A stretch of DNA of 48,656 nucleotides, from assembly GCA_913064725.1 (NCBI GenBank), contig CAJYAI010000016.1, positions 1 through 48,656 of the forward strand, in the 5' to 3' direction. The translations under genes were made by a program, and so were the position numbers. The DNA comes from an uncultured Alteromonadaceae bacterium. Its GTDB lineage: Bacteria; Pseudomonadota; Gammaproteobacteria; Pseudomonadales; Halieaceae. Shown piece by piece: positions 40,699-42,920 of this stretch. A model generated the notes under the pieces. The model had not been told where the DNA came from. It worked only from the letters and a program-made list of their open reading frames with translations, and made no database searches. The stretch's first letter is position 1. Every line of letters begins with the position of its first letter.

Positions 40699-41604
40699 AT
40701 GAAGGTCAACGAGCTGCTTTCATTGCAAGAGCGTGAGATGTTACTGAGACGCAGCGACACCAAGGCGTGGTTGATGGTTACCCGAACCTGGCTCCTCACC
40801 TTGGCTATACTATGGTTGGTTGACTATCAGACGACTTTTCTTACACTTTTTGGGGCCTGGATACTCCTGCCGGGCCGTCAATTGAGCCTCGCTGTTCTGA
40901 TGCACGAAGCGGGGCATGGCAGTCTGTTTAAGACACGACCGTTCAATCAGTGGGTGGGCCAATGGTTATGTGCCTTGCCTACGCTCGGTGACCTTCACTC
41001 TTACGCACGCGGGCATCAGGCGCATCATCGTCTGGCGGGCACCTCGGATGACCCAGATCTTGACAATTATCGGGCTTACCCGATCTCCCGGGACAGCTTG
41101 CAGCGAAAATGGCAAAGAGACCTGTTGGGAAAGACGGGTCTGAAACTAGTGCGAGCCTTAGCCAGTGGCTCCGCTAGTCAAATGAGTCGCGAGACCCATG
41201 GCTCTAAACACCTGATTTTGAAGCAAATAGCGGTGCATCTGGTGTTCATCGCCGTCTTGTCACTCTTGGGTATCGGATGGACCTGGTTTGTGTGGATGTT
41301 CACGTTTCTGACGTCGTATATGTGGGTGGTCCGGTTGCGACAGGTGGGTGAGCACGCGGTTGTTCCGGACCTTTACGATCCGGACGTTAGAATGAATACG
41401 CGAACGGTCGATGCACCTTTCTGGCAGCGATTTCTCGTTGCACCGAATAACGTGAACTACCACATGGAACATCACTTCATGGCGGGGGTGCCCTGCTACA
41501 ATCTGCCTCAGCTGAGGCGCTTACTGCGACAAAAAGGCTTCCTTGATGACGTCCCAGAGGTACAGGGTTACGGCCAAGTCCTTAAGATGGCGGTACAGCC
41601 ATAG
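40699..41604 (+). CDS. fatty acid desaturase family protein
   Basis: Membrane di-iron enzyme of 301 residues with the three histidine boxes: HEAGH (69-73), HQAHH (106-110) and HMEHH (255-259, preceded by NNVNY). Two pairs of membrane helices lie around residues 25-65 and 180-215. Relatives introduce a double bond or hydroxyl into acyl chains or carotenoid-type substrates; the exact one cannot be read. AGGGG lies before the ATG. It may be a single gene; 141 bases without a gene follow before the small peptide gene. Confidence 0.88.
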   Translation: MKVNELLSLQEREMLLRRSDTKAWLMVTRTWLLTLAILWLVDYQTTFLTLFGAWILLPGRQLSLAVLMHEAGHGSLFKTRPFNQWVGQWLCALPTLGDLHSYARGHQAHHRLAGTSDDPDLDNYRAYPISRDSLQRKWQRDLLGKTGLKLVRALASGSASQMSRETHGSKHLILKQIAVHLVFIAVLSLLGIGWTWFVWMFTFLTSYMWVVRLRQVGEHAVVPDLYDPDVRMNTRTVDAPFWQRFLVAPNNVNYHMEHHFMAGVPCYNLPQLRRLLRQKGFLDDVPEVQGYGQVLKMAVQP

Positions 41605-41745: not shown

Positions 41746-42006
41746 ATGCGTCGTTACACGACATCATGTTTACTCACTTTCTCACTGTGCCTCACATTAC
41801 CCGTGGCAGCCATGCCCCCAGACGCGCTCATCAATAATACGCTATCGGTACCCGGTGAAATCAATAAAGCGGTCATCGTGGATAGCGAACTTGCAGAGGT
41901 GAGAGGTCAGGTGTGGCCGCTCATTTTGGGCGTTGTCGCCGTCGATTTGGCGCTGCAAGCCTATTTTTACGGGGTCTATCTTCCGAACACCCGAGGCGGT
42001 CGTTAG
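41746..42006 (+). CDS. small exported protein with ELxxVxGQ leader-like motif
   Basis: 86 residues with a strong Shine-Dalgarno (AAGGAGGG). Residues 1-22 form a classic Sec signal peptide ending PVAA. Residues 44-55 (IVDSELAEVRGQ) fit the spacing of double-glycine leader motifs cleaved by C39 peptidases: hydrophobic at -12, Glu at -8, Leu at -7, Val at -4 and Gly at -2, but Gln at -1. A hydrophobic helix (57-80) and a basic tail NTRGGR follow. If processed after Gln55, a 31-residue peptide would remain. I do not recognise the family. The C39 peptidase two genes downstream is the obvious candidate partner. An alternative is a simple two-helix membrane protein whose motif is chance. Confidence 0.75.
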   Translation: MRRYTTSCLLTFSLCLTLPVAAMPPDALINNTLSVPGEINKAVIVDSELAEVRGQVWPLILGVVAVDLALQAYFYGVYLPNTRGGR

Positions 42007-42077
42007 TATTACCTCTCGATGAGCATTTTTATAATCTTGACTGCCGCCCTCGGGCGGCGCTATCAGGTGATTGGCAT

Positions 42078-42311
42078 ATGATGAGTCCCAAGCGGCAATT
42101 GGATGAAAAGTTGAGGGTGTTTGAGTCTGGACGTCGCAAAAATAAGATGTTCCTGCGCGCACTGATCCCGACCATCATTACTTGGAGTGCACTAGGCCTG
42201 ACCTATGCTGTGCTGCGGCCATCGACTGCAGATGACTTAGTCTGGGTAAGCGGCATGCTTGCACTCTTTGCATTGCAGATAATGGCAGCGTGGATTCAAT
42301 CCGAGGATTAG
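42078..42311 (+). CDS. small two-helix membrane protein
   Basis: 77 residues: a basic cytoplasmic N-terminus (SPKRQLDEKLRVFESGRRKNK) followed by two membrane helices (about 27-45 and 53-72) and an acidic tail. The ATG at 42078 has AGGTGA seven bases upstream. It lies between the ELxxVxGQ peptide gene and the C39 peptidase gene (nine bases to the latter), so the three probably form an operon. A GCCGCC/GGCGGC hairpin (42043-42058) sits just before its ribosome-binding site. Function unknown. Confidence 0.72.
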   Translation: MMSPKRQLDEKLRVFESGRRKNKMFLRALIPTIITWSALGLTYAVLRPSTADDLVWVSGMLALFALQIMAAWIQSED

Positions 42312-42320
42312 TTTCGATAA

Positions 42321-42920
42321 ATGCGGCAGCTATTCGCATCGGTGTGCGAGGAAGCCTTGATTACTGAGGGAGTGATTTGCTCGCCAAAACAGCCATTGTT
42401 ACTCCGGCTGAGAACAGGCCTAGCCGCGTTGTTCTTGGTAGCCCTACTCAGTCATCAGCTGGAGGTGCGCGCTGCCAATGTGTCTCCTGTTGTTAGTCAA
42501 ACGTCAGATACAGACTGCGGACTCGCTGCATTAACCATGCTGCTGCGGCGTGAAGCGTCGGTATTTACCTCCATCGCGGCGCTGGATATGTTAGCCGCCG
42601 TATTAATTGATCCAACGTCCAAGCGACATCGGTCCGAGGGGTATTCCGTTCGCGAGCTGCAAACACTGGCGAGAGCCTTTGGTTATCGTCTGGTCGCCAT
42701 GAGAATGACACTGGATTCCTTCTATGCGGGATCGTTTCCGATCATGGCATGGATCGACGTTGGTGACGGGGGTCACTTTACCCTCGTAGAGCGCGTTGAT
42801 AAGGGATCCGTCGTTTTGGCCGATCCGACCCGAGGCCGAGTCTCGCTTAATCAGAATGCATGGCGCGAGGTATGGCTAAAGGATCTCAGTGGGATCATTT
42901 TGCGGTTGACCGCTCTTTAA
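42321..42920 (+). CDS. stand-alone C39 family cysteine peptidase, exported
   Basis: 199 residues. A hydrophobic segment (about 33-51, LAALFLVALL) serves as a signal peptide or anchor, so the peptidase should face the periplasm. The C39 catalytic set is complete: oxyanion Gln60, Cys66 (TDCGLAALTMLL), His152 (GGHFTLVE) and Asp168 (LADPTRGR). There is no ABC or multi-helix region, so this is not a bacteriocin exporter of the PCAT type; the build is closer to FapD-like stand-alone C39 proteases. The start is not certain because the N-terminal 25 residues are unusual for a signal peptide. Its 3' end overlaps that of the convergent M16 gene by four bases. Confidence 0.85.
   Translation: MRQLFASVCEEALITEGVICSPKQPLLLRLRTGLAALFLVALLSHQLEVRAANVSPVVSQTSDTDCGLAALTMLLRREASVFTSIAALDMLAAVLIDPTSKRHRSEGYSVRELQTLARAFGYRLVAMRMTLDSFYAGSFPIMAWIDVGDGGHFTLVERVDKGSVVLADPTRGRVSLNQNAWREVWLKDLSGIILRLTAL

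Follow-up and report, generated by a model that had tools for sequence, protein, structure and literature searches.

An exported precursor and stand-alone C39 peptidase cassette of Halieaceae as a probable variant of FapD/FapF-type processing modules

Three neighbouring genes of an uncultured Halieaceae bacterium, encoding an exported precursor (p1), a small membrane protein (p2) and an exported C39 peptidase (p3), are best explained as a reduced variant, with new cargo, of processing-and-secretion modules of the FapD/FapF type, here consisting of substrate, p2 and peptidase (probability roughly 0.7). The cassette is regarded as a derived variant of this wider kind because the operon of relatives contains a FapF-like outer-membrane barrel and because the leader motif of p1 recurs in FapE and FilA. 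For the same reasons the view of an earlier sequence-only reading, in which the system stood apart from known ones, was given up. Linkage of the genes, register of the motif, catalytic residues of the peptidase and presence of the motif in FapE and FilA were established from the sequences, and the barrel fold was obtained as a structure model. Positions (Table 1) refer to the window, that is, the whole analysed DNA stretch of 48,656 nucleotides.

Table 1. Features of the cassette and its upstream neighbour in the window.
Feature	Position	Strand	Basis
p1, 86-aa exported precursor (candidate substrate)	41746..42006	+	ORF; AGGAGG upstream; family in 56/140 host-family genomes
p1 Sec signal peptide, residues about 1-22	41746..41811	+	by eye: MRR, hydrophobic core, AxA-like site; aligned relatives start alike
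Double-glycine-like leader motif IVDSELAEVRGQ, p1 residues 44-55, predicted C39 recognition/cut site	41875..41910	+	Gly -2 invariant
Predicted mature product, p1 residues 56-86: hydrophobic helix; conserved Asp67, Gly76, Tyr78, Pro80	41911..42003	+	most conserved part of p1
G+C-rich hairpin in p1-p2 gap	42042..42059	+	predicted folding
p2, two-helix membrane protein, 77 or 76 aa	42078 or 42081-42311	+	ORF
p3, exported stand-alone C39 peptidase, 199 aa	42321..42920	+	PF03412; PDB matches PCAT1/LahT/ComA
Fatty acid desaturase, upstream, not counted in the system	40699..41604	+	PF00487

The open reading frames at 41746-42920 confirmed the initial description of three adjacent plus-strand genes (86, 77 or 76, and 199 amino acids). 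A PreP-type M16 peptidase gene (Pfam) follows the cassette in the window on the opposite strand. The desaturase gene sits at the position that is held by the barrel gene in relatives. It was ruled out as a member of the system, since its frame is intact (301 aa) in a genome (G070) in which the cassette has decayed. A G+C-rich stem was predicted in the p1-p2 gap of all eight folded stretches (window and seven relatives), with differing sequence in two of them, and might, as judged from predicted folding, hold the substrate level above the enzyme level. In genus relatives this hairpin has an altered sequence and is in places followed by a T-rich stretch. The promoter scan yielded 0 promoters with 1.6 expected.

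No family was matched in Pfam searches of p1 and p2. Behind its Sec-type signal, p1 has a variable pro-region and the motif, after which come a hydrophobic stretch that includes Asp67 and then a basic tail; the motif belongs to the 86-residue protein (residues 44-55) and not to the 77-residue one. On a leader profile of the host family, whose training set included the window leader, the window motif scored 23.5 bits. The double-glycine leader signature L(-12) E(-8) L(-7) V(-4) G(-2) G(-1) is matched in register by the window, but with Gln at -1. The register itself, which had been noticed from the single sequence, was borne out across the p1 family: hydrophobic residues are kept at -12, -7 and -4 and Gly -2 is invariant. 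In the alignment of 40 rows, three positions besides Gly -2 never vary: the Asp and, in the product, the Gly and Tyr. Positions -7 (L, M, A, I, V) and -4 (T, V, L, S and others) vary more than in the PCAT leader. The supposed special role of a GQ ending did not hold: only G-x is conserved, residue -1 being R (13), E (7), Q (6), K (5), A (2) or G (2) among 35 unique leaders, and GQ was therefore dropped as a conserved ending. A true GG ending occurs in all nine p1 sequences of a group of relatives (L206-L214) and likewise in HTCC2080 itself (L079/L163). Mean pairwise identity among 26 non-redundant p1 sequences was 0.53 for the product core, 0.28 for the motif, 0.19 for the signal, 0.16 for the tail and 0.12 for the pro-region.

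The type IV prepilin signature is a G-F-x3-E type site at a cytoplasmic leader. The p1 motif was rejected as such a site, because the motif of window p1 comes after a Sec-type signal, has Gln behind the Gly and has no Glu at +5. According to the available part of PMC6363468, Leu-12, Leu-7 and Val-4 of the PCAT leader occupy a hydrophobic groove of the C39 domain, Glu-8 is replaceable, and known C39 sites terminate in Gly-Gly, Gly-Ala or Gly-Ser. Most p1 sites carry R, Q, K or E at -1, unlike these known sites, so that the cut may fall at another bond or the enzyme may have changed.

For distribution analysis, 140 host-family genomes were searched with thresholds of E <= 0.01 for p1 and E <= 1e-8 for p3. 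p1 was detected in 56 and p3 in 42 of these genomes, and 40 of 57 genomes of the window's genus had p1. The p1 family was scarcely seen outside the host family. Co-occurrence of the 86-residue protein with a C39 peptidase, which had been suggested as a check, was borne out: the order p1-p2-C39 was present in all 12 closest relatives (L004-L015), and C39 followed p1 in 39 of 41 named p1 loci, with the remaining two interrupted by a contig end. These 41 loci were collected by a pattern scan of named genomes, using a pattern that leaves out the window's own subgroup, and are titled Luminiphilus, Halieaceae, Haliea, Kineobactrum, Chromatocurvus, Pseudohaliea or HTCC2080. At 29 of them the PreP gene was found on the opposite strand. 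Linkage and register together support the proposed pairing of an exported substrate with an exported C39 as a putative processing pair.

For completeness, 15 further stretches were taken, 11 of which contain both p1 and C39. One has C39 without p1 and with other genes in the p1 position (L204), one has only a C39 remnant (L205), one has the barrel with another cargo and gave no C39 profile match (L215), and one stops at the barrel (L218). In G070, p1 and C39 are both interrupted by stops and p2 was not found; this joint decay indicates a joint function. A match in another genome (G246) was ruled out as a relative, as its 15-kb stretch contains no C39 by profile.

p3 scored 65.7 bits on Pfam PF03412 (cut-off 22). 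The intact Gln-Cys-His-Asp set described initially is present as Gln60, Cys66, His152 and Asp168. An alignment of 31 C39 sequences (window included) shows no exchange at Cys66, His152 or Asp168. Gln60, which we take to be the oxyanion-hole residue, is present in 26 of the 31 and absent from five, all of them HTCC2080-like. The structure model of p3 (pLDDT 85.8) gave its best PDB matches with peptidase domains of PCAT, LahT and ComA; PF03412 score, Cys/His/Asp and fold place it in peptidase family C39. Residues 1-30 were badly modelled, and C39 of close relatives begins directly at the signal peptide. The annotated N-terminus of p3 is therefore doubtful and its true start is probably downstream. 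No ABC transporter was found beside the three genes, as had been stated from the sequence. One other C39 match in the window genome lies on another contig (L002:1501-1857) within a 726-codon open frame, a length that would suit a C39-ABC transporter.

p2 of the window matched p2 of the barrel-bearing genera (hhalign, probability 95) and resembles a small membrane partner. It was not found in HTCC2080-like loci, one of which (L163) leaves no room for it. A similarity of p2 to SLATT was set aside (13.2 bits, below the cut-off of 41).

p1 is preceded in other genera by a gene for an outer-membrane barrel, immediately upstream and in the same orientation. A profile built from six of these barrels matched 23 of the 140 family genomes, 21 times beside p1, once beside another Sec-exported protein (G056) and once at a contig end (G138). 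The protein in G056 (L215:1821-2477) has 218 amino acids, LSPAEMAATEGD and Gly-rich cargo, and the 7-kb stretch around it gave no C39 profile match. In the window's genus the barrel was detected in one of 57 genomes, and the window genome had no match with the relatives' barrel profile. The FapF search of the window genome likewise gave no match, with 3 of 14 controls matching and none of them over the cut-off. The Chromatocurvus barrel was modelled with 12 long strands (pLDDT 77.9). Its top four PDB matches were FapF chains (TM about 0.6), with autotransporter and COG4313 barrels close behind; as barrels of this size are alike and the autotransporters rank so near FapF, this match is only suggestive. 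A Cys-bearing p1 tail was present in 12 of 14 named loci with barrel versus 0 of 27 without, an association to be read as correlation only because the 41 loci are related. As no barrel was detectable in the window genome, secretion is not claimed for the window.

For analysis outside the family, C39 was searched in 293 genomes of the order, 102 of which matched at 1e-10, many in frames of <350 codons. From these surroundings 38 stretches of up to 20 kb around C39 were picked by hand, mostly one or two per genus, covering 30 genera, with 37 outside the host family. The leader profile, made from 35 host-family leaders only (three corrected and one added by hand), was applied to ORFs passing a crude Sec-signal test. 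Scores of at least 10 bits were obtained for 31 of 212 signal-bearing ORFs located at most 2.5 kb from C39 on its strand, for 1 of 101 on the opposite strand and for 0 of 337 more than 4 kb away. One of the 31 near matches (L134) was judged spurious; with this match dropped and one region per genus, the counts were 21/168 near versus 0/279 far. A same-strand match was present in 24 of the 38 C39 regions and in 14 there was none. All 28 unique match sites have G at -2 and L or M at -7, 25 have L or M at -12, and the -1 residue is Q (14), R (9), K (3) or G (2).

Matches include FapE and FilA/DUF6160-type proteins. In a fap operon (L161) with FapA to FapF all above cut-offs, FapE carries LKDQELATLRGR, with the Gly at residue 49 of 256; among FapE-like proteins the motif Gly lies at residue 39 to 61. 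According to the available text of PMC5557850, FapE alone among the Fap proteins is completely processed at its N-terminus, from which peptides (first ~70 residues) are absent. The position of the motif Gly agrees coarsely with these absent peptides. FapA of the same operon (L161:12062-12499) has LSDGDFASVASG in a similar register, with SG in place of GG and a low profile score. FapA is reported as unprocessed.

Related modules were found in further genomes. In another family of the class (G465, L091:3990-11668), two modules lie in tandem, each with a motif-bearing cargo protein (353 aa in one, 142 aa in the other), a C39 and a protein that matches the barrel profile (64 and 90 bits). Also outside the host family (G690, L092:6399-9494), one strand encodes in succession a barrel (123 bits), an exported cargo of 132 aa (motif LSHDEMQKTEGE, Gly-rich tail), a small membrane protein, an unnamed 277-aa gene and C39. 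One host-family genome (G134) combines a short protein that has the motif but no helix with a C39 scoring 132 bits on FapD and a barrel-like protein scoring 45 bits on FapF.

For export, cleavage, exact bond and the fate and role of the product, the following course is proposed. p1 and C39 would each enter the periplasm via Sec, and signal peptidase would take off the p1 signal. C39 would then grip the leader helix of p1 via the hydrophobic residues -12, -7 and -4, in the manner of cytoplasmic PCAT peptidases, and would cut behind Gln55 of the Gly54-Gln55 pair or between these two residues. The predicted product is a hydrophobic helix of about 31 residues, which might act as a membrane peptide, a signal or a surface subunit. 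In relatives with the FapF-like barrel, the mature peptide, usually ending in a Gly-rich Cys pair, probably crosses the outer membrane or assembles at it. Nearly all genomes of the window's genus lack the barrel, and there the peptide is probably retained in the envelope, where p2 might be its partner in the inner membrane.

Three other explanations were weighed. A bacteriocin or microcin cassette, with p1 as antimicrobial precursor of the double-glycine type, p2 conferring immunity and C39 as maturation enzyme, is unlikely. It would account for a short hydrophobic, sometimes Gly/Cys-rich product adjoining a small membrane protein, and the G690 and G056 modules, with Gly-rich cargo behind the same motif, look bacteriocin-like by eye. 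However, conservation within p1 is highest in the product, while pro-region and motif vary; bacteriocins usually show the reverse pattern. The spread of p1 over a bacterial family and through most genomes of the genus, the locus shared with the opposite-strand PreP gene at most named loci, and HTCC2080-like loci in which p2 was not found also argue against this explanation. Quite unlikely is a role of the freed propeptide (p1 residues 23-55) as the functional product, e.g. as periplasmic signal or chaperone, with the helix as mere membrane anchor. In its favour, a cut at the border of the hydrophobic segment would set about 33 residues free as a soluble peptide. Against it, no other part of p1 is conserved as little as the propeptide, and in FapE, FilA and G465 the motif stands before large, differing cargo.

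It is very improbable that C39 chiefly binds leaders, as a chaperone or for handover, without any need to cut them. Residues other than Gly at -1 in most leaders and the absence of Gln60 from five aligned C39 sequences are consistent with such a role, and non-cutting C39-like domains exist according to the available text of PMC5557850. The invariance of the catalytic Cys, His and Asp argues against it, as does FapD, which the same text describes as working in the periplasm and requiring its Cys, Cys-to-Ala exchange abolishing secretion. A reduced FapD/FapF-type module with new cargo was thus retained as the best explanation.

Beyond the window, we consider it somewhat probable that these cassettes belong to a widespread gammaproteobacterial Sec-dependent double-glycine pathway, in which a dedicated C39 in the periplasm cleaves cargo bearing a Sec signal and an L-x-x-x-E-L-x-x-V-x-G-x leader, the cargo then passing to a FapF-like barrel. 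Fap and Fil would be two cases of this pathway, the cargo would be modular, and the Luminiphilus-type cassette would have lost the barrel and would mature an envelope-kept helix peptide. Such a pathway would put double-glycine processing outside the ABC-transporter setting and would make unnamed exported proteins beside C39 genes predictable substrates. Since the leader motif is common to p1 and to proteins of known surface-fibre systems, it indicates the likely cut site of the enzyme of those systems and nominates a candidate cleavage site for FapD/FilB-type peptidases. PMC6173800 (2018), in its available text, gives the FapD substrate as yet to be determined, and PMC12822426 (2025 review), likewise in its available part, has FapE and FapF as thought to be processed by FapD. 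In the partly available literature FapF is also named as a possible FapD target. No report of this motif in FapE/FilA or of the FapD/FilB cut site was recognised in the open-licence literature. The motif shared by FapE, FilA-type proteins and p1 gives the exact residues to mutate and the exact N-terminus to seek, and renders the question of FapD/FilB-type substrates directly testable.

The comparison with known systems supports FapD as the nearest parallel, as had been proposed from the sequence: relatives have a FapF-like barrel, and FapE has the motif. The available parts of PMC3792158 and PMC6173800 describe FapD and FapF as likely members of larger families and fapD-fapF pairs in five further phyla, respectively. 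Cassette and Fap share a Sec-exported C39 and the leader motif (LKDQELATLRGR of FapE), and the predicted 12-stranded barrel of cassette relatives has FapF as its best fold match. In contrast to Fap, the cassette cargo is a tiny helix peptide without match to FapE, window C39 scored 45.4 bits on the FapD model with a cut-off of 330, and no FapF was detected in the window genome. Among the ORFs listed beside the cassette, no fap gene other than C39 was present, FapA and FapB included. Searches of the window genome for FapC and FapE gave no match, though no control genome matched either.

Fil (FilA/FilB/FilC, names as in NCBIfam) is a putative pilus system of Acinetobacter. Its exported C39 beside DUF6160/FilA-type proteins, whose VTGQ leaders share the GQ ending with window p1, resembles the cassette, but FilA-type proteins are far larger (225-296 aa), window C39 scored 31 bits versus the FilB cut-off of 475, and no DUF6160/FilA partner above the cut-off was detected. 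The sole DUF6160-type match in the window genome was rejected as a second substrate (14 bits, under the cut-off, a chance VTGQ in an MFS-type transporter frame). With the PCAT/AMS proteins ComA, LahT and PCAT1, the cassette shares the C39 fold, the catalytic residues, the L-12/L-7/V-4 knobs and Gly -2. It differs by the Sec signals on both enzyme and substrate, by a -1 residue that is usually not Gly, and by p3 being a stand-alone protein of 199 aa with no fused ABC transporter domain, which sets it apart from type I secretion. By these measures the window cassette falls outside Fap, Fil and type I secretion, yet on the present comparison it would work most like FapD acting on FapE.
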